A stretch of 64,000 nucleotides of DNA, taken from positions 10,240,974-10,304,973 of the forward strand of contig NC_135259.1 of assembly GCF_964204865.1 (NCBI RefSeq), in the 5' to 3' direction. Positions 2,209 through 58,405 of this stretch are shown here, piece after piece. Positions within the stretch are counted from its first letter, which is position 1. Every line of letters begins with the position of its first letter. The position numbers were made by a program, and so were the translations under genes. The notes beneath the pieces are model-generated. The model searched no databases, was not told the origin of the DNA, and saw only the letters and a program-made list of their open reading frames with translations. This DNA is from Styela clava. Its lineage: Eukaryota; Chordata; Ascidiacea; Stolidobranchia; Styelidae.

Positions 2209-4206
2209 TTTTTTTTTTTTTTTTGATAAATTAATAATATAAATCATTACATACAGATGAGACAGTATAAATTCCATAACAAATATTGATCATTTGTATC
2301 CATATTGTAGCATATCCGTTGTAAATCCCATTTGTTGTCATCATCAATTATATGTTCCATGATGCCATTTACCATTATTTTAATTAATGCATGAAAAAGA
2401 AAATTTTAAGAATTAGTTCAACTTCATTACGATATATACTTCTAGTCATATTTATATATATCTGCATAATAAATCAAGTTCTTCACAATAATTAGGTAAA
2501 TTTCTCAGTCGTTCTATATTTCTCCTACACTTTATTGAATTTCTTATATTATTGACTACATTATTCACTCTTGGCATTACATTTTCAAAAATCACTGCAT
2601 TTCTTTGCAGCCAAATTTTATATCTTGCAGTACATATCAATAAAATAATAGCATTTTTTTCTATATTGGTCAAATGTACATAATTGTTGTGTCTTAAATC
2701 TAATAATATACACAGTTCATAATTTATTAAGTTGCCACTGTTAGTTATTTTCATGATAATAGAAAAAACATAATCATACAATTGTTTCACAAACGAGCAA
2801 TTCCAGAATAAATGTGTTATAAATTCAGCTTCTTTGTCACAAAATACACATAGGTCATCCCCAGCAATATATTTAATTCTTGACATTGTTTTAAGCGGTA
2901 AAGCGAGAATTTTATTATGAATATTCAAACATGCTGTTCGAATATCCCCATTGTTTAGAAATACAATTCTTTCACTTTTCAAAGTAGCAACAATTTTATC
3001 ATATAAAGTTCTATGATTCCCCTGCCTTACATCATTTATAGTGATATTATGCACTCTTATGAACTCTAGAATACATTTATAATGCCTATTAGGTTGAATA
3101 GAATGATATACACTATTATTTACAGGTAAATTATAACGAACACTTAGATGTTGACCTATATTGAATTCAATTAAATTAAAAACAGTTGTATAGCTTATAT
3201 TATTACTATTATTTTGTCTCCAATTACAGTATTGAACTGCGCACATTGCATACAGACAGTTAACGAAAATGGGTATGTTTATTATGTCATAACCCCCTGT
3301 ATTCTTTGCTTTACATAACGTCTCGATTTTTATTCTTGATGGTCCATCAAAAATAAATTTTTCAATCATTTCATTGATTCTCTTTCCAATCTTTGTGGGC
3401 ATTGGAAACACTCTAGCTAGATATACTGATATAAGCACAAAGGTAGTAATTTCATTTTTACTATTAAGCATTTACCTTCCAACGTCAGAGGTACAGTTTT
3501 AGATAATTCTTCTGTCATTGACTTTACTTTCCTAGCACATATGTCCCAGTTATGTTCACTAGTATCTTTATTGGCAAAAATAACATTCAATACTTGCAAC
3601 TCATCTACTACTCTTACATTTTGATGAAAATTAGCATATCTCCATATCCCAATACGTAGTATTTTTGTTTTCTTTAAGTTGAGTTTCATCCCTGTAGCTA
3701 TTTCGAATCTTTTTATTATTTCCAGGGCTTTATATAGTGAAGTCTTGTTCCTTAGCGTCAAAGTGATGTCATCTGCATATCCAACATTTTTGATTTCCTC
3801 ATTTCTTGGTATTTGTATTCCCTGAATTTCTTTATGTGAATTGATATATATTACCATGGGTTCTATAGCTATTATAAACATGTACATGCTCAGTGGGTCT
3901 CCTTGTCTAATGCCTCGTTCAAGTTGAATTGCTTCACTCAGGTATCCATTTAATAAAATTGTTGTTTCTGATGTGCTATATATAGATTTAAGTATACTAA
4001 TTAATTTATTCTTCATTCCAAATTGTTCAAGTGTTCTATACAGGAAATCCTGGTCAATAGTATCAAATGCTTTATTAAAATCCAATGATAGATATAGAGA
4101 TTCACCAGTTTTATTTTGCTCCTGTACACATATATCCCTTAGTATTGTCAAAACATCAGAAATTCTTCTTTCAGGAAGTGCAGCTTGATTTTTATCTATA
4201 ATTTTT
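2209..4206 (-). mobile_element. 5'-truncated L1/Tx1-like LINE with poly(A) tail
   Basis: On the minus strand this copy starts inside the reverse transcriptase and runs to a poly(A) tail (about 20 T on the plus strand, 2205-2224). It is flanked by a 12-bp direct repeat TTTTGGCATTTT (2197-2208 and 4207-4218), the expected target-site duplication of target-primed insertion. The endonuclease and ORF1 are absent. The flanking sequence continues across the insertion, so the empty site can be reconstructed. It lies 28 bp from the hAT MITE at 1673-2169 in the same older repeat. Confidence 0.88.
2452..4205 (-). pseudogene. LINE ORF2 remnant: reverse transcriptase and C-terminal domain
   Basis: Reading on the minus strand, the frame ending at 3417 encodes the fingers-palm part of a non-LTR reverse transcriptase: DFNKAFDTI (motif A), RGIRQGDPLS (motif B) and the catalytic VGYADD (motif C). 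The following frame, 3471 down to 2452, carries the C-terminal region with the CVFC-x15-H-x4-C cysteine/histidine motif (HLFWNC) typical of the L1/Tx1 type. The two frames overlap by 55 bp and the join lies at an AAAAATGAAA run, so a one-base frameshift separates parts that were one protein. The N-terminus is lost by 5' truncation at about 4205. It cannot make a functional ORF2 protein. Confidence 0.85.
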
Positions 4207-4340: not shown

Positions 4341-5170
4341 AAGTCATATTGGGGATGGCAAAATACGATCGAAAGGTGGCAGATTAGGGATGACAAAATA
4401 GGGTCGAAAAGTCAAATTGGGGATGGCAAAATGCGGTCGAAGCGTGGCAGATTAGGGATGGCGAAATGCGGTCGAATGGTGGTAGATTAGGGATGGCAAA
4501 ATGCGGTCAAAATGCGGTCGAAGCGTAGTGGCGGATTAGGGATGGCAAAATGCGGTCGAAGCGTGGTGGCAGATTAGGGATGGCAAAATGCGGTCGATGG
4601 GTGTCAGTTTTTGCCAAATCGACTGTCATAATGCACTGTATAGTATACAGATAACAATTAACAATTGCCTCAAAATTACAAAGAAATATGGCCAAAGTGT
4701 TTAGATTTGGGACTGATGAAATGGATTAGTACCTGTCAAATTCGGGCTGGCAAAACACAGTCGATGGGTGTCAAAATGGGATGGCGAAATGGGGTCGAAG
4801 CGTGGCAGATTAGGGATGGCGAAATGCGGTCGAAGCGTGGCAGATTAGTGATGGCAAAATGCGGTCGAAGCGTGGTGGCAGATTAGGGATGGCAAAATGC
4901 GGTCGAAGCGTGGTGGCAGATTAGGGATGGCGAAATACGGTCGAGAAGCGTGGCAGGTTAGGGATGGCAAAATACGGTCGAAGCGTGGCAGATTAGGGAT
5001 GGCGAAATGCGGACGAAGCGTGTCAAATTGGGGGTGGCGAAATATGGTCGATTCCTGTCAGGTTGGAGATGATGAAATATGGTCGATGCGTGTCAGATTA
5101 GGGAGGGCGAAATAGGGCAGTGGGTTGACGGGTGTCATGTCAAGGATGGCGAAATGCGTGTCAGATTTGG
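4341..5170. repeat. Minisatellite, about 35-bp unit
   Basis: A unit of about 33-37 bp with the core GGATGGCRAAATRCGGTCGA is repeated more than fifteen times, with units differing by a few bases and small indels. A non-repeat stretch at about 4605-4735 interrupts the array. Short open frames through the array are products of the periodicity and not genes. Confidence 0.9.
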
Positions 5171-5413: not shown

Positions 5414-5515
5414 CTCCTGAAGTATGCGCACCAAGATGTCGCACAACCTGAACCCTAACCTGGTACACAACCTGAGTTCAGGTGGTACGCCATCTTGTTG
5501 CGCATATTTCAAGAG
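5414..5515. mobile_element. Short palindromic MITE (CTCCTGAAGTATGCG family), copy 1
   Basis: The stretch begins CTCCTGAAGTATGCGCACCA and ends with a near reverse complement (TTGCGCATATTTCAAGAG). It is 102 bp and almost wholly palindromic. A copy of the same 102-bp length lies at 30549-30650; a longer relative is at 41868-42097 and a one-sided copy begins at 63811. It directly abuts the left inverted repeat of the nuclease element. Confidence 0.8.
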
Positions 5516-5520
5516 GTCTG

Positions 5521-5596
5521 CATTGGCTGTAGGCCGCGAGCCGAGGCCCTGAAAAACGCCTAGAAAGTGAGTTTCGTAGCGCACATCTGGTAACTA
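5521..5596 (+). repeat. Left inverted repeat bracketing the nuclease/CXC gene
   Basis: This block contains AGGCCGCGAGCCGAGGCC followed by GTTTCGTAGCGCACAT and GGTAACTA. The same three blocks occur in reverse complement at 12904-12976, with one 10-bp length difference between them. The two copies face each other across the 1600-residue nuclease gene, with no other gene between them. They are candidate terminal inverted repeats, although I could not identify a clear target-site duplication. Confidence 0.65.
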
Positions 5597-6206
5597 TATT
5601 TATTCTTCAGTTTTGTATCAAAATGAACATACTGAACGCATTACAGCTTGTTCCCACTAACGGAAGTTGCACATTTTCTGTAAATCAGCCTTCAAAAATC
5701 GTGATGCAAAAGTTGGATATCAAGGGGATTCCCCGAAAATCAATGATCATAGGCTTAAAACGACAGAGCATGGAATGTCGCTTTCATTTCATATATGCCA
5801 TCGAACGCATCAATTTTTTATGCGATAAGATCACAAATTATCTCCTTAAGCACAAAAACACAAGTTAATCGGTTAAAACCCTGGTGCTAAATTCGATATA
5901 AGGTGGTTCCCAGAAAATCAATAACCATAGGTTTACAATACAGCAAAAGAACTATGCAATTCAAGAGCCCAGCTGCATTTAACACTAATGTATTTCTGCA
6001 GCGTTTTGTCTGACCAAAATCAGCCTCCCTCGCACAAGCAACAAAGAACGGTATAAGATGTTGCATTTATTTTATAAAAGCCATCAAGCGCATTTATTTT
6101 TATGCAATGAAGTCACAAAAACACTAATAATGAAAAAAGAGAAATTGACACTGAAAAGTCAAGAAAATTGAATGAATGAATGACACTATCACATATCTGT
6201 AAGAAT
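5597..6206. repeat. Diverged internal tandem repeat downstream of the nuclease gene
   Basis: Two diverged direct copies are visible. The first spans about 5700-5840 (GATATCAAGGGGATTCC to AAGATCACAAA); the second spans about 5890-6120 (GATATAAGGTGGTTCC to GAAGTCACAAA). The second holds an extra stretch of about 100 bp. On the minus strand an AATAAA at 6071-6066 lies about 135 bases past the nuclease gene stop and could be its polyadenylation signal. No gene of its own is supported here. Confidence 0.5.
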
Positions 6207-9200
6207 CTAATAAATTATAATTTCAATATCTAATTCATTTTCATCTGTCTCGGTTTCGAAAATCGACTTTTCCTCTATTAGTTCACACTGGTTTTGGCAG
6301 TCAACACAAAAACAAAATTCTGTACAATTGAGGTTGTTTTTGGCACATGTGCATAAATTAGTTTGGCACCTATTCTTCTTGCACTTGCAGTTTGCCAACT
6401 CAAGAACTGATTTGGGGGCTGGAAGTAGATCCATCCATTTAACTTGCAAAACGCCATCATCAAGAACCCATCCATGGCCAATAGGTGAAGGAATAATTGG
6501 CTTTGGTTCTAGGCAAAGGTGATGAATTGCTGCCTGGTAATTTGCCCTCAGAACATGCTCCTTTAGTGAATCACTGTTGGGTGGAAGGGTGTGATCCATG
6601 TGTTTGCCTGTTTTGAAAAGACGTGCCCTGGCATCGTTTACATTTTTCATATTCTCTCCATACAGCGAGCAAACAAATTCCTCAGCTCTATTCATTGATG
6701 CCTCGTTAACGTCAAAAGATCTTCCTAGTTGAGCAAAAAACTCAATGAATTTTGACTCCTCCAACACCAGTTTGATGGGCTTCACTTTTCCTTTTCCATA
6801 AAAGGAGGACACGCTATCACAGCCAGTGAATGCATGTGCTCCTACCATAGCCATTGGAGCCGATGGGTGGATTTGGCTCAGATAACAATGTATGGCACCA
6901 ACATCAATAACCCGTCTACCTTTGGCAACGCCAGTTTCAAACCAAAGAGAACAACCCAAATTGTCATATTTTGCAATGCACAGTATGAGCACGTCCGTGT
7001 CTGGTGACTGGATTACTATAGAGTTGCAAGAGTTAGCGGCAAACTTAGCGTGAAGCATTAGACGGGTGTCAGCCTCTTCATGAGAGCATTCCAATTCATC
7101 TACTGTTGCAATTGTTGGAGTATGCGATGTACTAGCAAAGCAAATTTTCAGATAAGATTCCGCATAGCCGATAAACAGTGTGAAGTCAAGACTTTGGACA
7201 TTCTGACTCCAAGATTTAATAAAAAATTCCATCAGGAGCTCCTTGTTTTTTCCGCAGGATAAGTACTTTTTCCACTGGAGTGGTATCCTCTGGCTCTCTG
7301 AATAAATTTCATTTTCTCTTGTTTGGCAAACAGCTTGATGCTTAGCCCTCCGATGTCTTTCTGCGTTCTTAATGCTTATTGAGGGGTATCTATCCATTAC
7401 AAGATGCACAACCTTTGCACAACTTTCCTGGGCAATTTTCACCAACTTCAAAAGGTATAGTGCGGCAAGATCTCCAAATGTTTTGGGAATATTCCTGTGG
7501 TTGATGCTTTGTAGAACAGCCATTGCATCTAGTATCCAAACTGATTCGGTTGGTAATCCTTTCGCAATAGAAGATGGTATACTTTCGCAGAGGTAATGCA
7601 TCAGTTTTGCTTTGGATGTCCTCATTAGGCCTCCGTCTGTGTATGCCAACGACAAGGGCAAAGGGCCAAGAGAGTATTTGAGCAAATCCTCAATCTTGAT
7701 ACCTCTCTCTCTTCCTATGATTGCAAGACGCGCCATCAGATTTCTTTCAGACTTTAAATCCATCTCCTTTTGACTGCATTTGGTCTTAATTATTTTTCCA
7801 ACACTTGAAAACGATTTTAATTTCAAATTACTTATAGTATCATGAAAACTTTTCTTGTTTGATAAAAGCCGATCTTTGCAGAACTGAGTGAAGCAGAATC
7901 TTCCTCTCTCTTCAGCAGTCATAATATCACTGGCAATTACTTTGGGAACTACGACTCCTGAAACAATATGTATAAGATCCTCATATTCACGTGAAAAGGG
8001 GTTTATAAAACCTTCCATACACTCAATAATGCGACAAATGGCTGATTCTTCTCGTACGGAATGAGGTTTATCAAGATCTTTCCTATCACGCCCTTGCGAG
8101 TCTCTCCCAGCATACCCAAAGCATGCCTTTGTTATTTGTGCCCTTTCTGGGTGTGATAATATCCACCTCTGAGAAGCACCTTTGTTGAGGGTGAATCCTA
8201 CCATTCCACCTTTCGTTTTTGTATCTCTGTTGCACGTTTGCTCTATTGCCATATCGCATGCAACTTGTGAAAATCCATAGCGTGCTTGTCTCTGAACCAC
8301 AAATTCTCCATTTACAAACATGTTATGAACATCTGGGTGGGTCTCTTGAAGAGACATCATCTCAAGATAATATATTGGTAAGTATCGGGCATATTTGTTG
8401 CGGTTAGTGATGAACATCCATGGACACATGGCACGGACAGCAGACAAATGCAATGCCCAGTTCCCTTCTTTTGTGGCACGCAGAAAAAGAAGAAGAATTT
8501 CAATCATCTCAAGGTAAGAAGACCAGAACCTGAAAGTTGGGCATTTTGATTTTGACTTGATAAATCCAACATATTTCTGGTACACAGTGTTGTACTCAGG
8601 TGAGACAGCAACTTCTGCATACATATGCGAAGCGAAATGTTCTTTCAAGTCAGATATGACTTTTTTCACAAGATTGTAATCAGTTTCTGAAATTTCCTCT
8701 AGGAAAGACTGCCATCTAAGACGATGAAGAGCTTCATAAATCAGCTTGTGGCACCTTACGCTTCGATTATAATGATGTCCACTTAGCACTCCAGTGAGAG
8801 AACCTTTTGCACAAAGTTCTGCTTCGATGATTATATCACGAAGGCCTGCATCGCCAAACCACTTACCTATGCAAGCTAAGTAAGTCATAGCAGTGTGAAA
8901 TTCACCAAGTCGAAGAACGGTTCTGTTTTTAAATAGTTCCGTCTGCCACCGTATTGTCTGAGCCTTAGAGTAAATAGCCTGATCGAAAACAATTACTATT
9001 GTCTGCAACTTGAGTTTATCTGCAATCTGAACACTTCGTTCCAGGACAGTCAAGACTGTGTCCATTTCTGTAGGGCTTGCATCAATTACAGGCAAATATC
9101 CTACAGATGATAAAAGGGGAACATTTTGCACCAGCTTTGTATTAAATCCTGTCCATGTAGGAAAAAAAGATTCTTCGCTGTCCCCTGGAATCCTTGTGAG

Positions 9201-12200
9201 AATATAGGCCTGGTCAAGCTTTCGGGCATATTCCTGTACCACAAAACTGCATCTAGTTGTCACTACGCTCTCATCAATCTGTTGCGGTGCGGCTTTCTTT
9301 TGTCCACGATATGCAACTAGACCAGAAGATGAAGGCTGAAATGAGCGTTTTCTATCACGTGAAAGTCCTGCTGTAGGTTCCAAATACCCAGATACTTGTT
9401 CACATTCAGGAATAGTTCTCTGTACTATTATACCATTAGTATTATGAGTGGTGCCCTTTCCAGTAGATGTCTCTTCCCCAAAATCGTTATTATCCCACAC
9501 AAGCGTCACAGGCCGATTTGATTTGATACATGATGGAATAGAGATGGGACCCTTCAGCTCTTGTAAGGTGGCCAGAGCAGTGTCGTATTCTAAAACAAGA
9601 GTATTGGACACACAGTGCCCCAGACCGTTGAGGAGGGTAATCAACGAGGCTGATCCAGTCAAATGACGGACTGCCATAGCAAGTGACATGTGCATTCTTC
9701 CGCCCTTGGATAGGTAAACAATATCCTGGCAGATGGAGTAGATTTTTTTTGACATTCTTTCTCCTACTTCTACAAAAAAAGGATCAGAGATTAACCCAGT
9801 AATCCAACTAATAAATTGAACCAGCAACTTTGGTACAGATTTTTTCACTGCATTATCATCGAAGTGCTCTGAAGTGGGAGGCCAGTGTTGAAAAGAAGGG
9901 TCATGGTCATTAATAACATTTCTGAGATACATCGCAGAAGCAAATATTTGCTGTGGATTAGTTGCAGGAGGCGCGGATGGTTGCGAACATGTTGGTTGCT
10001 CATTCTCAGAATCGTCTTCCATTTCTGCCTCCGAAACAGTGTATGTGACAGTATGATCGGCAGTGTTTTCTTTTTCTTCAATGACATCAACAACTGAAAT
10101 GGTATCCACGAACACCAGATCACTGCACGTCTGCTCTTTGGACCGTATAAATGCAAGTTGTGGAAATTTTTTTTTTAAACGCTCTTTCAAGTTGGAGGTA
10201 CGATAACCAGGAGAATCAAAAAGCTCAAACTGTTCGATGTATCTCTTGAAGAGGGTGTTTAAGAATGTTAACCGAAATATCTCCTTGTTCACAATTATCC
10301 TCGGTACAATAAATTCTTCACAAAACATTTTGAATGCAGTAGCATACCGCGTATCCACAGACCCTGACTGTTCTATCTTTCTTCTCATGAAGCGAGTATA
10401 GGTTTGGTAGCAACTTGAATGGTACCGGACTTCGGATGCAACCGGATCAACATCCCGTAGTTGGAGTAGTAAAATCTGAAATTGATACAATCAACATGAG
10501 CTAACGAGGAATATAAAAGCTTATCAATGAAACATTATCCTGGTGACTAGGGCTGTTCAAAATCGAATACTTTTTTGATTCGAATCAAACCGAATATTTT
10601 TCTCGAATCGAACCGAATATTATTGTGCAATCCTAAATTTGTCTCTATTGCACAATAAAAACTTCCTCTTCGATATTGTGATAACGTATGTGCAGTTACA
10701 TTCAAATTATTGGTAATATATTGCATAACTATGTTTCCAGAGTTATAAAAGGAGATCACAAGCCTTATTGAACTGGTAAAAAAAATAGGGGTTCGAATAC
10801 TATCAAGTTTTAAGAGTTTGAAATTGCACGAACTCTCACCATTACGGTATTTACTCACTTTTAATGGATTCAGTTTCAATAGGGCATGCAAATCCTGTTA
10901 TCATTGGTATTACTAACTCAAGATTTTTTGTGTAATTTTCAGCAAAATGATAAACAACTAAAAAACGTCATCTTCAAATCTTTGTTTTCGATAACTTTTC
11001 ATTTATGGCCATGCATGAAATGGATAATTACATGTTACCGGGCAATAGGAGAGACATCTTTTTACAGCAAAGAAAGCGATAGAAATAGGTTTTTGCTTGC
11101 TCCGTGAAAAACGCCGTGCAAAGGTGGTCGTGAGGCGCATTATGTACCATATTTTAGTGATTCGCAAATTGGCCGAAAAACGCTTCGAATAGTATGCAAT
11201 TCTATTCGATTTCGAATAATTGATTCACTTGGACAGCCCTACTGGTGACTACACCACAATCATAACTGATGGATGTAAAGGTTGATATTTCAAACTCACC
11301 TCATCTTTTTTTCGCTTTGCTGCTTCGAGAAGGCATCCTGCTTCCAATGTCTGACACCGAGTCAGTTTCTCTAATACTCTCTTCCCAGTCACCTTATTGC
11401 GTTTAAATCTCGTAATTCCACATATAGTACACTTTACGGAAAAAATATGCGGTCGTTCAATCGTTCTCAAACCCTTTGTTGGTATAGAAGAGCGTAGCAT
11501 CTTTTTAGGCAGTGCGAGTGTGTCAGGATCAAGCTCCTCGGCTAAAACAAATTATTCATTTTCAATTACCAAATTGTCCGCTACTCACGGTCTGTCATCA
11601 CATTTTAGTGTAAGTATAAGTTCATTTCGACTCCATAATCACCAGACTGGCAATAAAATGATTTGTAAAAACGAATAAATAAAAACTGGTCTTGAAATCA
11701 GGGGAGCAAACAAAACCTCAGACAAGATTTAGCGGTACCGGTAGCTAAACTGATGCAATTGTTATGATTCTCATATACCTTTACGCTTTTCCTTGTGACT
11801 TTTTCTTCGACCCATTTTATTTTTACATGTATAGCGCTGATAGCAGCAGCGATGGTAGCCTGCATTAGGTGGAATGGGTGGAACATTGCCACTTTCTTCT
11901 GAAGTGAAGTATCTAAAATGAGGAAGAAACGCATATTCTGAACAATATGAGTGTTTTTCGACAAATAAAAATACCACTAAACACTGACTAAAACCACTCA
12001 TACATAATGCATTTTTTCTCATGTACGGTACTACAGTCATGTAGTGTTTGCATAAAAGATTATGTGTACACTGAATCTCGTTAAATCACACAGTCCCTGC
12101 CCTGCATACATATATATTTTAAAACATTAACTGTCATTGTATAAGTCAATACAGTGATACATGAATTCTCACCTTTCAATCACTTCCAACGCTACATCTT

Positions 12201-12330
12201 TTTCAACTCCTGCATGACTTATCTTTGCTGCCCAGGTCTTTGTCGACTCTATAAATTTAGACCAACTGACATCAGTAAAATTGGTCACTTTCCCCTCGTT
12301 CTTACAAACATGCATCACACAAACGGCCAT
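6207..12330 (-). CDS. XPG/FEN1-like nuclease with CXC zinc motif, probably transposon-encoded
   Basis: Four exons join in phase: 12330-12173, 11912-11779, 11541-11300 and 10475-6207, each with GT-AG borders (for example GAG|GTGAGT and TTTCAG|ATT). The product is 1600 residues with no internal stop. The N-terminus has two Cys/His modules, each ending in a YHxxCYxxYT motif (YHRCCYQRYT, YHSSCYQTYT). The central part is unrecognised. Residues about 1155-1400 look like a FEN1/XPG-type PIN nuclease: ILDA (D1161), VMDRY (D1206), EEAD (E1312, D1314), SPDTD (D1337, D1339) and TGCD (D1398), in the order and approximate spacing of the seven acidic residues of FEN1. Residues 1541-1571 form a tesmin/TSO1-type CXC motif, a DNA-binding zinc structure. 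Family members occur as multicopy genes in invertebrates, from memory. Flanking inverted repeats suggest a mobile element. Nuclease function and mobility are inferred. Confidence 0.8.
10548..11241. mobile_element. hAT-type MITE inside the last intron of the nuclease gene
   Basis: The element begins TAGGGCTGTTCAAAATCGAA and ends TTGGACAGCCCTA, its imperfect inverse. It is flanked by a perfect 8-bp duplication CTGGTGAC (10540-10547 and 11242-11249). At 694 bp it occupies most of the 824-bp intron 10476-11299, which would otherwise be about 120 bp. The ends and duplication length indicate a hAT-derived element. A related TAGGGCTG element sits at 28403-28818. Confidence 0.9.
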
Positions 12331-12903
12331 TATTTTTCATTCAAATATACTGTAGTCTATATTAAAGGGTCTGCTGAATACTCAAGAATCGTCAATAAAT
12401 TAATTCTAAACCTTCCATACAAGCATGGAAATATCTTTGTTTGTTTGTGATGCCGTAACTTTATATCTTTCTAGGTCTAGTCCTCCTTCAGTCCTTGAAG
12501 TTGCCCTACAAGCCTATTTAACAACTAAAATTGCTATCCATGGTAAGAATCTACGAGTGTATAACACCTTACTTATACTTTTTAACACCGTCTTAGCATA
12601 ACTCAATTAATAATAACAAAAAAAACGATGGAAAGGCAACCGCACCCAACCTAACACAAGACTGAGCGATAAAACTGAGATTCATCCGCACGCGAACAGC
12701 TGATTGAAAGTTATGTGTTACGTCACGCAGAAGTCTGCGTTCATTGGCCAATGTTGCCGGAAGAGCAGAGAATATAGGACAGATGATAGCACATATTTCT
12801 TGTAGTGAAAGTGTTTTTTCCGTTAAATGTGCAACTTTTGGAAATGGGAACAAGGCATTATTTGTTACTGAATTTCTAAGGAACATTTTAAAATCATTTT
12901 CGG
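12331..12903. other. Upstream region of the nuclease gene
   Basis: This is the interval between the nuclease gene start codon (12330, minus strand) and the right inverted repeat. It would hold the promoter if the unit is autonomous. Short open frames exist on both strands (for example plus strand from 12744) but none resembles a known protein and none continues the nuclease reading frame. I see no clear TATA box. Confidence 0.4.
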
Positions 12904-12976
12904 TTAGTTACCTTATGTGCGCCACGAAACTGAAAGATAAATGGCCTCGGCTCGCGGCCTACTGGCATAGCATTGT
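12904..12976 (-). repeat. Right inverted repeat bracketing the nuclease/CXC gene
   Basis: Reverse complement of the 5521-5596 block: TAGTTACC, ATGTGCGCCACGAAAC and GGCCTCGGCTCGCGGCCT appear in order. About 20 bp at the outer side match exactly, and the inner 28 bp match with few differences. The distance between the outer ends is about 7.45 kb. Confidence 0.65.
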
Positions 12977-13549: not shown

Positions 13550-16348
13550 CAGTAGCGGCGCGTGGTCATTTTGACAACCGGGGCAAGCTACTGCGGGACC
13601 AAGTCACCCCCATCTACGGGGACAGGATGAGCGCTGTAAGTTCTCCCATCATTTTATGAGTATAAAAACCATTCCATCGGTAACAACCAATCGGCAAAAG
13701 CGACAATTTTTAACGATAAGAAAGTGTCTTTAAAACCGGTCCAAGTCAAGGGATTAATAAATATAGACATAGTTTATCTTGAAACCTCTTTCAAAAGGAA
13801 AGGCAATATTTACCCAGATAAATACAATGACATATTAACAGAAACTTCGGGAAAGCAGACAAAACCTAAAATAAGGTTTAAAACGTTACTATGAAGAAAG
13901 GAAAGGTAATGCAAAGATAAGGACATGCGTCGCTCACTCATAGATATATATGCTGCTAGACTTCTACTGCTTGAACATATATGCAACACGCCGCGGTTTC
14001 TTGGAAGCAAAATGCTCAATAACGCGCTGATTAAAGTCATGCATCCCAGAAATAACGTCTCTGTGAATGGATAAAACAGCCAAGGAATTTAATCTATCTT
14101 GCTTCATTGTGTTTCTGAGATACGTTTTAATACGCTTCAGCGTGCTGAATGTTCGCTCTGCGTCGGCGGAAGAAATAGGCGTCGTCAAAATGATGTCCAG
14201 AAATTTTGCCGCAAAGGTAGTTACTAGAGTGTTATCTATGAGGAACCCATAGAGCGCGCAAGTTGTGTGATGTTCAAAAAAGTTTGATTGGTGTATATAC
14301 ATCGCAATTCATTTTCCAATTTACCCACGTTTATCATGGGGTAAAATTTGAAGACAGTAGCCAACAAATGGATGGGAAATTGACATGCAAATTTTGAAAA
14401 ATTTTTGTGGTTCATCAAAGAGAACGCGGCAAGGTGTTCAGTGCGCAGACGATCGCCTATTTGATTCACCAGAATGTCACAGCATTCCTTTGCAGACAAA
14501 ATCAAACGCTGCGTTGTTTGCCCGCGGCGTAAAGAAGCACTCCACGTGTCGTCGTATTTTATTGTTTCCCGGATACGAGATACAGCATCGCAGAAGTCTG
14601 AAATACACGACTGCACAGACGCTTCATCCATTAGCCTTGACTGCAATGCGCCGTATAATACATCCACGTGATAGAATATTGTGGAGAAAAAATGAAAACT
14701 CACCATCTTCTAGCAGACGCTTTAGACCTGACGCCTCCCTCACAGAGTGTTCGTCCCAAACCGAAGAGCTCTGAATGCCATTGAAACACTCAATGAGCTC
14801 AGACCTAATTTCGGACACGCCCTGCACCACGCGTGATTGGAAGTTCCAACGTGTTGGTGCACAAGTTGGGAGACGGCGGCTACATATCTGGCGAAGGAGG
14901 TCAGAGCGCTTCGGCGAAACGGAAAAAAATGAAGAAAACCCCGAAACATTTGCAAAAAATATACGGACGAGAGGGGTATCAAGACACATATTTTTAATAA
15001 CGAGGTTAAATTGGTGTGCATAACAATTTAAAAAATGCGCATGAGGAAAATCTTCTTTTATATAAACTTGAACACCATGTTTCGACCCACTCATGACTGC
15101 CGCGCCATCATAAGTTTGAGCTATCAATTTTGACTTCGCGTTGTAAGGCTGTAACACTTCCTTCAGTACAGCAGATGTCCCTTTCGAAACAGTTGCGGCA
15201 TCAAGATGATCTCTCAATACTGTATCTAGGGATGCGGTGTATTCCACCATATCCAAAAATACCCCTCTATTAGAAGAGCCAGCCCGTTCATCGTGCCCAC
15301 GGAGGGACAGCTCGTGACAACCAATGAACTTCAAAACATCTATCAATCGACCGAGAACATGGCGGTTTTTCTCGACGTTTTGGTTGTGCCGACGAATAGG
15401 AACCGCGCGTCCTTCATCCAACTGTGTCGCAATATTAACATTTCCGAATGTTCGGTATTTTACTGCATTGTCCAGATGCTCCATAGAAGATTGATGATCC
15501 CTGGCACGCTCGGAAAAATTCTTAAGATCTCTAAAACCAAATTTACACCAACGTGAGTCACGGGCGGTAGCAAAAAGTAGGCAATAAAAACAAAAAAGTG
15601 CATTTTTGTCCTCGCTGTAACACAACCATTCGTGTTTTTTAAACCAAGTTTCTGCGCAGAATGTACGCCGACGCTTTCCTCCGTCATGGGATTGTTCCAG
15701 TGAACAATTTTTTGGTTGATAAGGCCCAAGACGTTGTACCTCTAATTTTTGTTCGAGCGGCAGCTGCGAAAACGGAGTGCGAAGTAGTGCATCAACCTTA
15801 TTCATTATGAGGTCTAAGGCTAAGAAATGCGAAGCCGGAAAGAAGTGAGGAGCTCTAAAGGAATGTGGAAAATCGAAAGCAAATGGACTAAAGGTCTCTA
15901 ACTGATTCAAATAGCGAAACAAGCGACAAAAACGAAGGCGAGGAAACTATCAACTCTTCAAGTAACCAACGAACGAGAAGGAATGCGTGAATATGTCAAC
16001 ACGTTGTTGTAAGAAACGTCGGCATTGTGTCGTCATAATTTCGGGGCTAGCACCGATCGGCCCCGATGGATTTAGTAAAAAAAAAACAGAAAACAAACGA
16101 GACAAACGCGGCGAGTGGAAGATAAAAGAGAGAATACGATATACAATGAGCAACCGGGGCAAAATCGGCGTCGCCTCGTCGACGTTCGACGAAGGCTTTG
16201 CGAGCGAAAAATGAACCATGTCGGGAGAATATGGCTAGTGTAGACAGTCTGTGCAACCGATATTGAGGTATTTTTCGAATATTTTTTATTATACCGGAAA
16301 TACAACCGGGGCATTGCCCCGGTTGGCCCTATTGACGCGCCGCCACTG
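13550..16348 (-). mobile_element. hAT transposon with inverted repeats and broken transposase
   Basis: The left end reads CAGTAGCGGCGCGT and the right end is the reverse complement of CAGTGGCGGCGCGT. Just inside, both ends carry a CAACCGGGGCA block. The 2.8-kb interior encodes a hAT transposase on the minus strand. The 8-bp flanks (GATTTTGG and TCAAATTG) do not match, so the target duplication has decayed or the insertion was rearranged. Confidence 0.88.
13964..15805 (-). pseudogene. hAT transposase (TTF zinc finger / ZMYM1-like), two frameshifts
   Basis: Reading on the minus strand from ATG at 15805 (MNKVDALLRTPF), the order is: a TTF-type zinc finger (TWFKKHEWL, ALFCFYCLLF), the DUF4371 region (RHNQNVEKNRHVLGRL), the RNase H-like catalytic part (AQTYDGAAVMSG, CYAHQFNLVIKNM), and the C-terminal dimerisation domain (ADAERTFSTLKRIKTYLRNT). 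The frame changes twice. The first change is at an A6 run on the plus strand, 14687-14692, inside LLEDGEFSFF; the second is at an A6 run at 14276-14281. Apart from these two sites the reading frame is open to the stop near 13964. The copy is therefore young but inactive, unless the homopolymer lengths are sequencing errors. Confidence 0.88.
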
Positions 16349-33641: not shown

Positions 33642-36600
33642 ATGAGTAGGCGTACCGGTTTTTACGGAGGCTCACCTGGCCCACCTATCGACGAAAGATC
33701 ATTAACGCATCATGTACCACAGTTGTATGGTCAGATTACACCAGGAGGTAACCATGTCTATGGTGGTCCTGGTATACCATATGATCCTCCACCCCAAGAG
33801 ATGAATGGAAATGATTCTGTTTATTATACCCATCATGTAGGGGGAAATGTAATGCCCAGTAATTATGCTGATTTCAGAAGTGTTCATATGAATACTTATC
33901 CATATGTCCCGAGAATGGGTCAATTTTATTATGGGGGTGGCCCGGCCCCTTATTATTATACAGCCCCTCCTCAATTTGTTGATGACAATTTTGCGCACGG
34001 CCAACAGTACACAGAATGGTCTTCCAATGATTTTTCGACTCCAAACGACATGTCGCCACCAGAATCTACCACTGTGGAAGACAACGCTACTGCTGCTGAA
34101 GCTCGGTCATCTAGTAACGAAAGCGCTGGAAAATCGCGACGATTTAGCAGACAACGCAATGTTAAAGATGGTGATGGAAATAGACCCCGTAGTGCGTCAA
34201 ATAAAACACAATTCAAAAATGTACCTAAACATGAAATAAGATTTAGTCATCAGAAACGACAATTAGACACTGCTCCAATATCCGAACAAAAGTCTGTTAT
34301 AAAAATTGATGACAATGACAGTGCTGAGGCTTCCAATACAGAAGATTCAAGATTTTCTATAATTCGAAGTATTGGCAAGAGAGAGATTGACACTGGTTAT
34401 GATGAACCACAAAAACCGAATAGAGGACCAAGACAAAACAATAAAAAAGAGAAGCCGAGAATCATAAAGAAGAAAATTGACAAGCCTGTGGTAATTGAAT
34501 CATCAGAATCTCAACTTAATCTTTTATTGGACCAACTTACATGCGGAACTTATGAATGCATGGTCTGTTGCGATCGTGTCAAACAACAACACGCAATATG
34601 GAATTGCAGTAAATGTTATCATGTTTTTCATATGGGGTGCATCAAAAAATGGGCCCGGTCCCCCTCCGCTCATGTTGAAGGTGAAGGGTGGCGATGCCCA
34701 GGTTGCCAAAACATTACCAAGAAATTCCCAAGCACCTATAACTGCTATTGTGGAAAAGTAAAAGAACCAGAGTGGAATCGCAGAGAAACTCCTCACTCAT
34801 GTGGAGAAGTTTGTGGCAAAAAGCGAAGCAACAATGATACATGTACTCATCCATGTAACATACTCTGCCATCCAGGACCGTGTCCTCCATGTCCAGCCAG
34901 TGTAATTAAGCCCTGTTTATGTGGGAAGATGACAAGAAAAGTAAGGTGCAGTCAACAAAAGCCATTGACATGTACAGATGAATGCGGGAAATTGAAAAAT
35001 TGTGACATTCACAAATGTGATGTTATATGTCATGCTGGTGACTGCAATGACTGTGACGTACTTGTGGAACAAGAATGCTTTTGTAGTAAAAATAAAAGGG
35101 AAGTTTTGTGTGGTTCCGATCAGTTCAAAATTACTCGTACCAAAGGCAGAAAGCAGGTTTACTCTTGTGAAGGTATATGTGAGAAAATACTTTTGTGTGG
35201 TCATCATAATTGTGCTGAAGTTTGCCACGAAGGAGACTGCAAGCTGTGTCCTCTACGTCCTAGTGCTGTAACAACGTGTCCATGCACTCAAACAAAGATT
35301 TCTGATTTAGTTGATGAAGATGGTAATAAAGCTGTTCGAACGCAGTGTATTGATCCTATTCCTCTATGCGATAAAACATGTAATAAACCACTGCGATGTG
35401 GTGGTGACAGCATTCATACATGTAAACTTAAATGTCACACTGGTCCGTGTTCTCCATGTACGGACGATATATCTGCCATTCATTGTCGATGTGGGAAATC
35501 AGAAGATGAAGTACCATGTTCTGAAATACCAGAAAAATTGTATATTTGTGATCGACGATGTAATAAAAAACGCAAATGTGGTCGACATAAGTGCGGAAAA
35601 ACTTGTTGTATCGATACAGAACACTTGTGTACACAGATATGTGGAAGAAAACTTGAATGTAAATTACATCGATGTGAGGAACCTTGTCACAGAGGGAATT
35701 GCCACACCTGTTATAATGTTAGTTTTGAAGATTTGAGTTGTCATTGCGGAGCTGAAGTCATGTTTGCGCCAATTCCCTGTGGCACGAAACCACCTGAATG
35801 CTTGAGGGAATGCATGAGAGTTCATTCTTGTTTTCATCCTGTTAAACACAATTGTCACAATGAAGAAAAATGTCCACCTTGTGTTGTTTTGGTCAAGAAA
35901 CCTTGTAATTGTGGAAGGATAATTCGAAGTAACATTCCATGTCACCAAGAGAATGTCTCATGTGGTGCACCTTGCAAAAAAGTACTCCCTTGTGGTCATC
36001 ACTGCCTGAAACCATGCCATCAAGGCCCATGTATGGAGGAAAATGACAAATGTACTCAACCTTGTAGCATTATGCGTGTTGAATGCATTCATCCCTGTGC
36101 AATGTTTTGTCACCAAGGTCAGCCTTGTCCTCCTTCACAATGTAAGGCTATGGTCACTCTTAAATGCAGCTGCGGAAATCGCGAAATGCAGGTAGAATGC
36201 TCAGAGGGAGGAGCGACTTATCAACGGATATCATCAGAGGCATTCGCAAGGCAACAACAAATGAGCAAAGGCACTGTTGACATTAGCAATCTCTTTAACA
36301 GCGGAGGAAAGCAGAAAGTCCTTCCGTGTAATGAACAATGCAGTGCTATCGAACGAAACCGTAGATTAGCAGAAGCCCTGAATATTGATGAACAGGCTTC
36401 AGCTGTAGCGGAACAACATATCTATTCATCTTTTCTACAGATGTGGGCCAAACAAGATCCAATGTTTGTTCAAGGCATAGAACAAGAGTTAACAAATATC
36501 ATTGAGGCCGTAGCTTGGTTGGATAAAACTAAACGTTCTCACACATTTCCATCTATGAGAAGAGAGAAACGACAAGTTATTCACGAACTTGCTGAAGCTT

Positions 36601-37154
36601 TTGATTGTAAATCTGTCAGCATTGATGAAGAGCCAAATCGCAGCGTTCTTGTTACCGCTGTTCGAGGTGTGAGCAAAATTCCACGTCTTCTCTTGAGTGA
36701 CAGCGTGAAAAAAAAAGAACCTGAACCAGCATTTCGAAGGCAAACTGAGAGTCAAAGTAAGACAAGTAATACTGTTGATGGAAAGAAAAGACTTCTGAGC
36801 TCCATGAAACTCGTGTCTTTGACATCTGCATCCCCTTCATCAGACGATAAAACAAGTGATTCCAGTCATCACATGAAAAGACCAGCTTCCATTCCTCGTA
36901 TGCCGAGTTATACTTCATCAGTGGCCAAACAGTCTACTACCAGCGTTTCTGGAAAATTCTCAGCTGAACACAATGCTAGAGGTGGTTATTCAGATGGAAA
37001 ATTGTCGAATACTACTCCATCCAACAGTCGGGGCAATGCATATAGACCAGCAAGCTACGCTCGGACCAGCCAATCAACAAGAACGCCATCTGGGTCGGCA
37101 GCATCTGGAGGCAAAAATGAACCAGAAATTGACTATTTTGATATGACTGGTTAA
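33642..37154 (+). CDS. NFX1: NFX1 transcriptional regulator, single coding exon
   Basis: An uninterrupted frame of 1170 residues. The N-terminal 300 residues are low-complexity, rich in Gly, Pro and Tyr, then basic. A RING/PHD-like finger starts at C306 (CMVCC, CYHVFHMGCIKKWARSP, WRCPGCQ). A long array of NF-X1 zinc fingers covers about residues 370-890, with repeated CGHH-x-C-x3-CH-x-G-x-C units such as CGHHNCAEVCHEGDC and RCEEPCHRGNCHTC. An R3H-type region follows at about 930-1012 (SMRREKRQVIHELAEAF, NRSVLVTAVRG). A serine-rich tail ends in EIDYFDMTG, matching the conserved C-terminus of animal NFX1. In animals NFX1 represses MHC class II and other promoters and binds poly(A)-binding proteins; I did not find the usual PAM2-like motif at the N-terminus. 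Vertebrate NFX1 is split into many exons, so one coding exon here is notable. AATAAA lies at 37637. Confidence 0.95.
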   Translation: MSRRTGFYGGSPGPPIDERSLTHHVPQLYGQITPGGNHVYGGPGIPYDPPPQEMNGNDSVYYTHHVGGNVMPSNYADFRSVHMNTYPYVPRMGQFYYGGGPAPYYYTAPPQFVDDNFAHGQQYTEWSSNDFSTPNDMSPPESTTVEDNATAAEARSSSNESAGKSRRFSRQRNVKDGDGNRPRSASNKTQFKNVPKHEIRFSHQKRQLDTAPISEQKSVIKIDDNDSAEASNTEDSRFSIIRSIGKREIDTGYDEPQKPNRGPRQNNKKEKPRIIKKKIDKPVVIESSESQLNLLLDQLTCGTYECMVCCDRVKQQHAIWNCSKCYHVFHMGCIKKWARSPSAHVEGEGWRCPGCQNITKKFPSTYNCYCGKVKEPEWNRRETPHSCGEVCGKKRSNNDTCTHPCNILCHPGPCPPCPASVIKPCLCGKMTRKVRCSQQKPLTCTDECGKLKNCDIHKCDVICHAGDCNDCDVLVEQECFCSKNKREVLCGSDQFKITRTKGRKQVYSCEGICEKILLCGHHNCAEVCHEGDCKLCPLRPSAVTTCPCTQTKISDLVDEDGNKAVRTQCIDPIPLCDKTCNKPLRCGGDSIHTCKLKCHTGPCSPCTDDISAIHCRCGKSEDEVPCSEIPEKLYICDRRCNKKRKCGRHKCGKTCCIDTEHLCTQICGRKLECKLHRCEEPCHRGNCHTCYNVSFEDLSCHCGAEVMFAPIPCGTKPPECLRECMRVHSCFHPVKHNCHNEEKCPPCVVLVKKPCNCGRIIRSNIPCHQENVSCGAPCKKVLPCGHHCLKPCHQGPCMEENDKCTQPCSIMRVECIHPCAMFCHQGQPCPPSQCKAMVTLKCSCGNREMQVECSEGGATYQRISSEAFARQQQMSKGTVDISNLFNSGGKQKVLPCNEQCSAIERNRRLAEALNIDEQASAVAEQHIYSSFLQMWAKQDPMFVQGIEQELTNIIEAVAWLDKTKRSHTFPSMRREKRQVIHELAEAFDCKSVSIDEEPNRSVLVTAVRGVSKIPRLLLSDSVKKKEPEPAFRRQTESQSKTSNTVDGKKRLLSSMKLVSLTSASPSSDDKTSDSSHHMKRPASIPRMPSYTSSVAKQSTTSVSGKFSAEHNARGGYSDGKLSNTTPSNSRGNAYRPASYARTSQSTRTPSGSAASGGKNEPEIDYFDMTG

Positions 37155-46777: not shown

Positions 46778-49002
46778 ATGGCTAGGATTTGCCAGTTATG
46801 GAGGGCATTGATCTTTATTTCCTGCGGATTATTCATTTCATTCGATGTCTGGTATCATTATTCTGCGCATCAATCTTTGTCGGAAATTACAATGAAATTG
46901 TTTCCGAGGACACTAAATGAAAAAGGTAAGTGTATAAATAAATATTACCACACGACTATATTCTTTGAAACATATTTACTGATGCTTCTTTCATAACCAT
47001 AGGCTACCGCTGTTTGTCAGTATAAAATTGCTAACATTCAATAGTTGAAGCTTTCGGGGCATTTTGCAGTAGCGGAATTGCAAAAAAGGGATGTCGAAAG
47101 TCCTATTGTTCATATCTATACAATTTGAAGACCTTTACGAATTACCTGATATTTTATGGGAGACCACTCAATTACACTATTCAAACCGTTCATACTGCGT
47201 ATTCCTGGGTACAACAGACTTCGTGTTTAATCTTTTTCATTTTAAATGAAATAATTATTGCTGTAATACAATTAAGCGCCAGGTTTGAAATTCACTACGG
47301 GGTAGCTCTTGGCCTTAATCCGTTTAAAGCTAATAGTTTTTCTATCAGTGTAAGGTTTATCGTTAGTGACGTTCATTGAATAATCCTATAATCACGTTAC
47401 ATTATTTTTATCGTGTCTAGCAGTTACCTACGTCGCAGTTTTTTTCTTTATGGGATGAATTTGTAGATGTATTTTTTAGATAGCATATTCCCTGCAATCC
47501 GAAAAATACAACACAATCGTTATTTCATTATTTCGTTAATTTTATTTTAAAAAATTAAGCTAAAACTAGAACAACGTAGTATGGCTTCTGCGTATCTCTC
47601 TATTGATTTCTTTCATGCAGGAAATTATTTTTGTCTGCTTTACACTGTTAAGACAATCTACTTCCTGTATAAAATAAATCCGTTATGTCCCTGCTTATGT
47701 GTAAAAACAATCTTTTATTGTGATACTTCTACAGCGACCATGCTACCAAATTATTTTACACTGTTGTGTTCCTGTAAATTGAAGTTTCTTGTCTCTTCGG
47801 TATGTGTAGTAAAGCTGGTCGTAAGGGCGAGTCACACCCAAAATTGTTGAATACATTTTGTTGGATCCTGAAACCCATATTTGTTTTATGTTTCAGCAAA
47901 AGTTGCATCAATAAAGAGACAAGTATATAAAGATAATTTTGATACAAAAGTGCTCTATTCTACTACCAGACTACCTACGAAAGCTTCACTACCCAAAACT
48001 GCATTTCATCCTCAAGATACATTGCCTGGATTAATAAGTATGGATCATGCATTAATGCTGCCTGCATTACCACCACAACAGAGCAAAAACAATAAAGATA
48101 ATCATATTTTTTTCTATTCGCAAAAACGAGATCACAATTTCATTATTTCACACAACGATACTTGTATAGGGAATACCAAGAATTCCGAATCTAAAAAAGA
48201 TATATTTCTACTAATGGCCATAAAATCAATGTGCAAATCCAGAGATCGAAGAAAGGCTATCCGAAGGACTTGGGGGAATGAGACCTATAGTAGTGAAGTA
48301 TTAGGAGTAAAAGTAAAATTGATCTTCTTGCTCGGAGCTTGTGAAAATGTGAAATCACAAAAAGAACTTTTTGGAGAAGATCGACAACATTTTGATATTC
48401 TTCAATGGGATTTCATTGATACATTTCGGAATTTAACGTTGAAGGACTGTCTTTATCTTCAATGGTTTGCTAAAAACTGTAGACACGTGCCTTACATCTT
48501 CAAAGGTGATGATGATATTTTTGTGAACATTGGAAATATTTTAAAATTTTTGAAAGACTTGCCTGTTGAAAAATCGGACACTATTTTCATTGGGTCAAAA
48601 CTAGAAGGAAGTCCTCGTATCGTTGAACCCAAATCAAAATATTTTGTAAGTTCAAATTTATTTTCCAAAAACTATTATCCAGCTTATTTATCAGGCGGTG
48701 GATTTATACTCAGCGGCAAATTGGCAGTTGAATTTTTTCTTCAAACATTGAAAACTCGTATCATACCTATAGATGATGCTTTTTTAGGAATCTTAGCGGA
48801 ATCATTAGGTATTGAACCGAAGAATGATAGAGGATTCAAAAGTTGGGGTATGAGAAAAGTCGATCCTTGTCGTCTTTCAAAGATTAAAACATATCACAGA
48901 GCATCGCCTAAGTATTTAGTTAAATTATGGGATGATTTATTAACTGTCAACATGGAAAAATGTGGCGAGGAGACAAATGATGTTTTTATACGTCAAAATT
49001 GA
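46778..49002 (+). CDS. GT31 beta-1,3-glycosyltransferase, type II membrane protein
   Basis: Two exons, 46778-46925 and 47897-49002, joined at AAAAG|GTAAGT and TTTCAG|CA in matching phase, give 417 residues. Exon 1 starts at an ATG and encodes a short basic tail and a hydrophobic anchor (LWRALIFISCGLFISF, about residues 7-22), the usual Golgi type II signal anchor. Exon 2 holds a stem and the catalytic domain with the family motifs: RRKAIRRTWGNE, LIFLLGA, DFIDTFRNLTLKDC, the metal-binding FKGDDDIFVN (D254-D256), YPAYLSGGGFILSG and IDDAFLG (D342-D343). These are the conserved blocks of beta-1,3-galactosyl- and N-acetylglucosaminyltransferases, which act on glycans in the Golgi. Which donor and acceptor it uses cannot be told from motifs, so no gene symbol is given. 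The second exon alone lacks the anchor. Confidence 0.9.
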
Positions 49003-56579: not shown

Positions 56580-58405
56580 GTGTCCTCTAGTTTTCTTCTC
56601 TCAGAGCTTATTGCAATACATTTCAATATTAGGTCCCTAGCGAAATATTACGATGATTTAGTTCATCTGATCTCTAATTTTCATATACTGCCACATATAA
56701 TTGCCCTGAGCGAGACCAGAATTAAAAGCAATACCGCTGTTCTCAATTTTGATATTCCGGGATACACTTTTCTCCATGTTCCCTCCTTAACTCAAGCGGG
56801 TGGTGTGGGTTTTTATATCAGGAACAACATAAACTTCCAAGTTAATAATGAATTCAACCTATCGTTTCCGAATTTTGAGGACTTATGGATTGAGATCAAC
56901 TATTCTCAACCAAATTCCAAAACCCAAAGCCTTATTATCGGAGCAATGTATAGGCACCCAAAAAACAACATTCCATTATTTACGGGAGCAATGGGTTACT
57001 TATTCGAAAAGCTGACAATGGCAAGAAAGCAATTCCTGATTCTAGGTGATTTTAATATTAACCTTTTTGATAGCCGTGACAATTCCACATCCAAGTATTT
57101 GGACTTGCTTGCGTCAAATTTTGTATTCCCAATTATTACACGACCGACAAGAGTCACCCTGTCCTCACAAACCCTAATAGACCATATTTATACTAGTAAC
57201 ATAAAATCTTGTTCATCATCATTTATTCTCCTTAGTGATCTTACCGATCACTTTCCAATAATGTGTACAATTTCAACTACTGGTATTAGTATCAAGTCAA
57301 AAACTCGCTTAAAACGCGACATGAGAAAATTTTCTGAGGACTTATTTAGATTAGAGGCTGAGTCAATATGTAAAAATTATACCAGTCCCACTTTAGGTAT
57401 AGATAATTTCAATAATTCGTTTGACCTCTTTCTCAGTCAATTAAAATTGCTGATTGATAAACATGCACCATTACGACCTCGTTCTCGAAGAGAAAATAAA
57501 TTATATTCCAAACCTTGGTTTACCAAGGGAATTCGTAAGTCCATCAAACCTAAAAACAGCATGTTCAAAAAAAATTTTTGAAGGGCAATGCATCTCAGCG
57601 TCTTTACTTTACAAAATACAAAAATATTCTGTTACATTTACTGAGAAAATCCAAGCAACAGTATTACCATAATATCTTTGATAACAACAGAGGGGACGTT
57701 AAACGAACTTGGAGGACTATCAATGAGATTATCAAAGTTAAGTCCAGTGATAATTCCACCATCCAATAACTGAAACTTGAGAATGGTTCCATTGTTAAAG
57801 ACCCCGTAATAATGGCCTCAGAGTTCAATAAGTTCTTTTCCACTGTAGGCAAGAAGCTTGCGGATAAAATCCCACATAGCTCTAAGTCACCCACTGACTT
57901 CTTGGGCGCTCCTCTACAAAATTCTTTTTTTCTCGAGCAAACGACACCTCCCGAAGTTCATCAAATAATCTTGAACCTGAAAAAAGGCAAAGCAGTTGGT
58001 CCAGATGGTATTCCAACCTATTTTCTTAAAATAATCGCTGATATTGTATCTCCAGCTCTAAGTCATTTCTTCAATTTATCATTTAGTTTAGGCATTTTCC
58101 CTTCCTCATTAAAAATAGCTAGGGTAATTCCAATTTTCAAAAATGGCAACAAAAATAACCCGTCCAATTATCGGCCAATTTCCATCCTCCCCACCATAGG
58201 CATTGTTCTAGAAAAAATAATAAAAGAAAGAATGCTGAATTATTGCTCTAAATTTAATCTTATCAACAAATGTCAATTTGGATTCCAAACGAGTCATTCT
58301 ACCAGCCATGCCCTCCACCCTCCACCCTCCACTCTGAAATGCTATTCTTCTTTTATTTTATTCTGTATATGTAGCTTGCGTATTTTCAAATGGTGGAAAA
58401 AATAA
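56580..58405 (+). pseudogene. LINE ORF2 remnant: endonuclease plus partial reverse transcriptase
   Basis: The first frame (from about 56580 to 57581) is an apurinic-like endonuclease with the conserved HFNIRSL, IALSETRI, GGVGFYIR, GAMYRHP, LGDFNINL and SDLTDHFPI blocks. A frameshift in an A-rich run near 57570 leads to the second frame (57578-57769), which ends at TAA. The third frame (57812-58405) starts the reverse transcriptase: KGKAVGPDGIP, ARVIPIFKNGNKNNPSNYRPIS and FGFQTSHST. It then jumps directly from the STSHAL position to 3' UTR-like sequence, so the catalytic YxDD palm and the thumb are deleted. It is inactive. Confidence 0.88.

Follow-up and report, generated by a model that had tools for sequence, protein, structure and literature searches.

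Academ is counted among the 20 superfamilies in Repbase whose transposase is of the DDD/E type (PMC9587614). AcademX elements are described with target-site duplications (TSDs) of 3 or 4 bp and AcademH elements with TSDs of 9 or 10 bp, a difference in length that the author ties to the encoded nuclease or helicase, respectively (PMC10045372). Academ transposons are reported as abundant in bivalves, in which the curated Academ elements have a mean length of 5,565 bp (PMC10294476), and a review describes the poxvirus G5 protein as FEN1-like (PMC9415595). The window analyzed here, i.e., the whole 64-kb stretch of DNA from the ascidian Styela clava, contains a DNA transposon (Table 1), the protein of which appears to combine a candidate DDE transposase core with a FEN1/XPG-like nuclease region and cysteine-rich modules. 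The nuclease of AcademX transposons is named XPG.

Table 1. Features of the transposon and its gene, in positions of the window (a point in the strand column means that no strand is given).
Feature	Position	Strand	Basis or detail
Complete DNA transposon, 7432 bp	5530..12961	-	Ends common to copies; 3-bp TSD
Left TSD, CTG	5527..5529	.	Flank comparison
Right TSD, CTG	12962..12964	.	Flank comparison
Left terminal inverted repeat (TIR), TAGGCCGCGAGCCGAGGCC	5530..5548	+	Patchy similarity for ~150 bp inward
Right TIR	12943..12961	-	19-bp perfect match to left TIR
Exon 1	12173..12330	-	Open frame, start codon at 12330, GT-AG intron
Exon 2	11779..11912	-	Cys/His-rich, GYHRCCYQRYT
Exon 3	11300..11541	-	CTICG...
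hAT-type MITE	10548..11241	.	In intron 3; ends TAGGGCTGT..., 8-bp TSD CTGGTGAC
Exon 4	6207..10475	-	Residues 179-1600, then stop
Candidate RNase H-type DDE core	8691..9500	-	D506 (VWDNND), D676 (VIVFDQAIY), H705 (LGEFHT), E729 (IIIEAEL)
FEN1/XPG-like nuclease region	6501..7535	-	D1161, D1206, E1312, D1314, D1337, D1339, D1398, then SSFYGKGK (H2TH-like)
CXC (tesmin/LIN54-like) cysteine motif	6297..6389	-	Invariant cysteines; LIN54 profile match

Transposon Ends, Target Sites and Copies

Similarity to other copies has abrupt limits, at 5530 and at 12961. Six fetched copies (L031, L032, L033, L034, L035 and L036) have the left end in common, and the right end is common to L031, L032 and L033, with L034-L036 being truncated or extending beyond the fetched stretch. 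A search with the TIR 19-mer, allowing up to two mismatches, revealed 331 + 333 = 664 sites in the 376.6-Mb genome, against 0 sites for the reversed 19-mer in the same search. TSDs were read at 21 fetched insertions, which comprise facing TIR sites with element-like spacing, taken from those of the 664 sites that were listed, plus the ends of the window element and of L032; this sample is a subset of the facing pairs listed, none of its pairs was dropped, and the nested pair described below lies outside it. An exact 3-bp TSD was the longest match in 20 of the 21 insertions when lengths of 1 to 8 were tried, no 4-bp TSD was found among the 21 pairs, and the remaining pair (L080/L081) is without any TSD. 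The earlier note on this DNA had suspected a mobile element and had proposed a search for multicopy relatives and an inspection of their boundaries. The perfect 19-bp TIRs, the 3-bp TSDs and the excess of TIR sites over the control strongly bear out that suspicion. That note mentions neither the TIR ends nor the 3-bp TSD, nor the further candidate catalytic region of the protein.

Among the TIR matches listed, many pairs are spaced by approximately 2.9 kb. One such element (L065, ~2.9 kb), read whole, is an internally deleted relative with the same ends, which by eye retains scraps of the coding end. Another insertion (L090/L091), with GTG duplicated, has gone into DNA that is similar to the gene of the element itself, around window position 6615. 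In the nested pair (L031 1333-10000 and L033 1778-9225), copy A abuts the inverted left part of copy B, and TTT (window positions 6502-6504) flanks both sides; to judge from its sequence, this arrangement looks like an insertion of A into B with an inversion afterwards. Elsewhere in the genome, at C1:23026224-23026259, two elements meet in a tandem junction in which the right end of one and the left end of the other share two bases, with no TSD in between.

The copies closest to the window element are 99.48% (L031A), 99.34% (L032), 99.43% (L033B) and 98.84% (L034) identical to it, and L031A and L033B, which form the nested pair, are 100% identical over 6,473 aligned columns; further relatives with 31-47% identity are found within the same genome. 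Relative to the window gene, the N:S ratio of codon differences is 11:7 for L031A, 11:8 for L032 and 26:15 for L034, against 3.58:1 expected without selection, so that silent changes exceed the neutral expectation in all three, in small numbers. From the near-identical copies and these ratios, it follows that the family is young and has recently been active. A domesticated host gene, or a nuclease region persisting as a dead relic, would agree with the many copies that are truncated or stop-bearing, including L036 (N:S 31:10, one stop) and L035 (144:22, nine stops, a rough comparison since it crosses an insertion). Such a reading is nevertheless barely credible in view of the N:S ratios of the three longer copies, the exact TIRs and TSD that surround the gene, and the long frame that stays open in at least three near-identical copies (L001, L002 and L003).

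The hAT-type MITE in intron 3 is also present in L031, L032, L034 and L035, being ~200 bp shorter in L032. As it recurs in several copies, it is therefore carried along by the transposon, as a passenger outside the transposition machinery. The surroundings of the element contain further repeats. A minisatellite with units of 35-38 bp (4500-5160) adjoins it, and the left flank (5424-5515) has its own inverted repeat, GTATGCGCACCAAGATG ... CATCTTGTTGCGCATA, recognized by eye and possibly belonging to another small mobile element. Fragments of LINE-type reverse transcriptase/endonuclease are located at 2452-4151 and 56580-58405, and DUF4371/hAT-like transposase fragments, with DUF4371 below its cut-off, at 14236-15922. 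Two stretches, 33642-37154 and 47881-49002, carry host-type genes, one for a product with R3H and NF-X1 zinc fingers and the other of galactosyltransferase type.

Gene Structure and Candidate DDE Core

Joining the four exons on the minus strand (12330..6207) yields a spliced frame of exactly 1600 codons followed by a single terminal stop, with GT-AG at all three introns, in agreement with the protein length claimed previously. The start codon and the splice-site words of the window gene are also held by copies L031A and L032. Several database searches provided little orientation: phmmer with the whole ORF returned 0 matches in the PDB up to E 10, the NCBIfam scan gave no useful match, and the PHROGs scan gave weak matches to families of unknowns.

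A three-family alignment of the window protein with L045 and L037, two relatives that are ~40% identical, has 314 invariant columns among 1141 shared ones. L045 (2112-6449) encodes an uninterrupted relative of 1445 aa with the full layout kept, and its contig is assigned to a Planctomycetota MAG; because this 6.5-kb contig carries a single 1445-aa frame, it is likely to be eukaryotic DNA in the wrong bin. L048, a partial relative with parts of the nuclease and CXC regions, comes from a contig in the assembly of a Bathymodiolus symbiont. An EEADTR-type pattern occurs in 22 stretches of the genome contigs searched, two of which (L045 and L048) match the protein by tblastn with E up to 1; one of the other 20, L043, is an unrelated short frame. 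Viral contigs gave neither a confirmed relative of the protein nor an EEADTR-type pattern match.

Among the stretches compared, conservation is highest in the middle region, with a fraction of 0.351 invariant columns versus 0.256 in the nuclease region. D506, D509, D676, H705 and E729 are invariant across the window protein, L045 and L037, and the strand-D/strand-D/helix-E appearance of the region looks like that of an RNase H-type transposase, which makes it a candidate. Pfam DUF6589 is matched weakly in all three fragment members in a scan to E 10 (best E 3.1e-5; window, E 0.0052), as well as in whole L045 (E 0.0029) and L037 (E 1.2e-4). DUF6589 was not listed when the whole ORF of the window protein was scanned against Pfam, and a literature search found no paper linking DUF6589 with transposons.

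The earlier note had envisaged a non-DDE element; in such a reading, the FEN1-like nuclease would make the cuts for transposition, and the middle region would be a structural part. Conservation is no less strict for the nuclease carboxylates than for the DDE candidates; moreover, a PDB search up to E 10 with the profile of the DDE part gave no match, and the AlphaFold model of that part (alignment of 2 rows) has a mean pLDDT of 31.9. The invariant D506/D676/E729 set within the same protein and the higher conservation of the middle core, however, point the other way. FEN1-type enzymes hydrolyse, but are not known to join strands. In addition, Academ is classed as DDD/E (PMC9587614). The non-DDE route is accordingly considered improbable, and a candidate DDE core is retained for the discussion below.

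FEN1/XPG-Like Nuclease Region

In the translated join, each of the seven acidic positions named in the earlier note is found at exactly the residue number given there and in the corresponding context, i.e., ILDA for D1161, VMDRY for D1206, EEAD for E1312/D1314, SPDTD for D1337/D1339 and TGCD for D1398. All seven are invariant in the window protein, L045 and L037, so that the predicted conservation across relatives holds for seven of seven residues in three families. Forty-two acidic residues of the nuclease region have letters in all three rows of the alignment; 12 of them are invariant, and these include the complete predicted set, which had been chosen without an alignment (hypergeometric 2.9e-5). 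The carboxylates of host FEN1 (D35, D87, E159, E161, D180, D182 and D234) come in the same order with roughly similar spacing, including the E-x-D and D-x-D pairs and a GCD followed by an H2TH-like stretch. In contrast, the second and third carboxylates are 106 residues apart in the window protein and 72 in FEN1, and the window nuclease shares its chain with a CXC motif and a candidate transposase region.

Profile comparisons were carried out with several families. Searching the PDB with the nuclease profile gave six matches up to E 10, of which the top ones are four Exonuclease 1 (EXO1) sequences with E 0.1 to 0.12. The EXO1 alignment covers the last carboxylate and the H2TH element, placing GCD-SSFYGKGK on GCD-SSLRGIG with a weak score, and the H2TH stretch after the last carboxylate also aligned to FEN1, again weakly. 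Pox_G5 matched the window nuclease from D1206 to D1339 with E 0.0011, a likeness seen in one of five members and scoring 18.5 bits, below the Pfam cut-off of 27; unrelated families also surface at E near 0.01. Pfam XPG_I was unlisted for all five members in a scan whose filters drop weak matches. A FEN1 profile was built from host FEN1 plus 23 sequences of Haloferax and other members of its phylum, including a partial one; viral FEN1 relatives were sought to widen it, and none was confirmed. Comparison by hhalign with this profile placed SPDTD on TEDMD and TGCD on LGCD, with a score of 27.08, a probability of 3.4% and a P of 0.013. The first 10 column shuffles reached at most 19.7, and three of 200 further shuffles reached the real score (maximum 29.1), while the DDE region and the reversed control scored 16.9 and 18.0, respectively.

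AlphaFold models, for which relatives in the alignments were limited to the window protein, L045 and L048, gave a mean pLDDT of 41.6 for the nuclease part (alignment of 4 rows). Fold searches with the low-pLDDT models returned no meaningful structural match, the rows of one search spanning only a helical stretch (model residues 49-96). Each of the nuclease matches is weak alone, yet they converge on the same family (FEN1/EXO1/poxvirus-G5-type) and the same register. The FEN1/XPG-like core proposed in the earlier note is thus upheld at the level of sequence, by the invariant carboxylates together with the EXO1 and Pox_G5 matches and the hhalign register to FEN1.

CXC Motif and Putative N-Terminal Zinc Modules

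Nine cysteines of the CXC motif, at 1368-1398 in ORF numbering or 1541-1571 of the whole protein, are invariant in the three families, and the tenth (1402) is not. A PDB search with the family profile brought up the CXC domain of LIN54 with E 0.0077. The scores of Pfam TCR are 15.7 bits for the window protein, 18.7 for L037 and 8.7 for L045, below its cut-off of 23.5. The motif claimed previously therefore stands as a cysteine pattern, with a putative role in choosing DNA sites, and as a Pfam TCR domain it falls under the cut-off. The pattern is similar to that of tesmin/LIN54, differing in being a single motif, whereas two stretches are matched in the LIN54 chain. At the N-terminus, exon 3 (CTICG...) with RYHSSCYQTYT of exon 4 may, by eye, form a second zinc module; the putative modules gave no Pfam match above cut-off. 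KDZ transposons are likewise rich in CxC modules. Pfam models of KDZ were not listed for the window protein, L045, L037 or the fragments, in scans whose filters drop weak matches.

Classification and Possible Mechanism

The window element shares with AcademX the nature of a eukaryotic TIR transposon, a 3-bp TSD and a nuclease, recognized from sequence here. AcademX belongs to the DDD/E class, and the window protein has candidate DDE residues (D506/D676/E729) in a region of weak matches. The bivalve link of Academ has a counterpart in the partial relative on the Bathymodiolus symbiont contig. Differences are found in the TSDs, which are exclusively of 3 bp in the window family (20 of 21) and of 3 or 4 bp in AcademX (PMC10045372), and in size, the window element being 7.4 kb as opposed to the mean of the curated bivalve Academ elements given above. 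AcademH is part of the same superfamily, but is described with a helicase instead of a nuclease and with longer TSDs. Pfam matches of exon 4 (E up to 10) and of the N-terminal part (E up to 5) include no helicase family, and its TSDs speak against 9 or 10 bp, 3 bp being the longest match in 20 insertions and none being present in one, with lengths of 1 to 8 tried.

Placed by its architecture and TSD length, the element is best read as a new AcademX-type family. AcademX is described as belonging to the DDD/E elements, as encoding a nuclease in addition and as making 3- to 4-bp TSDs, and the window element agrees with it in its TIRs, in the length of its TSDs and in the nuclease. The earlier note, which knew of no described transposon class with this combination, is therefore most likely wrong on this point. 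Taken as a whole, the locus probably represents an autonomous, recently active AcademX-type transposon encoding one protein with a DDE core, zinc modules and a FEN1-like nuclease, for which the ends, the TSDs, the count of end sequences, the internally deleted relative, the nested insertion, the intact gene and the conservation of both acidic sets are directly observed.

In such a transposon, binding of the ends would fall to the Cys/His modules at the N-terminus, to the CXC motif at the C-terminus, or to both. The RNase H-type core would cut and join strands through D506/D676/E729, leaving the 3-bp duplications, as the conserved residues and the Academ literature suggest. The FEN1-like nuclease in the same chain would process flaps or branched DNA, whether at the transposon ends or within the gapped target, acting either in second-strand removal at the donor ends or in flap and gap trimming after joining.

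A more specific division of labour, compatible with this explanation, is conceivable, although we regard it as rather unlikely: the DDE core would cut and join the 3′ ends and the FEN1-like nuclease would remove the 5′ strands. Families that are ~40% identical retain both acidic sets within a single protein, and the sister group AcademH has a helicase instead, its TSDs differing in length in connection with the enzymes according to the author (PMC10045372); a role in donor or target repair, however, fits the same observations equally well. The protein would then have two different active sites, a DDE site for one strand and a FEN1-type site for the other, and the nuclease might help set the 3-bp duplication; in the boldest form of this doubtful proposal the FEN1-type site would be the main cutter. 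In Tn7, TnsA acts beside TnsB, and by this parallel the two-site chain could, with the same reserve, be viewed as a eukaryotic single-protein counterpart of TnsA/TnsB.

With its intact and nearly identical copies, its clean ends and its numerous end pairs spaced like those of an internally deleted relative, this young family is good material for studying the role of the accessory nuclease of AcademX. If the FEN1-like site indeed cuts the second strand, it would represent a new route to double-strand breaks for a eukaryotic transposase.
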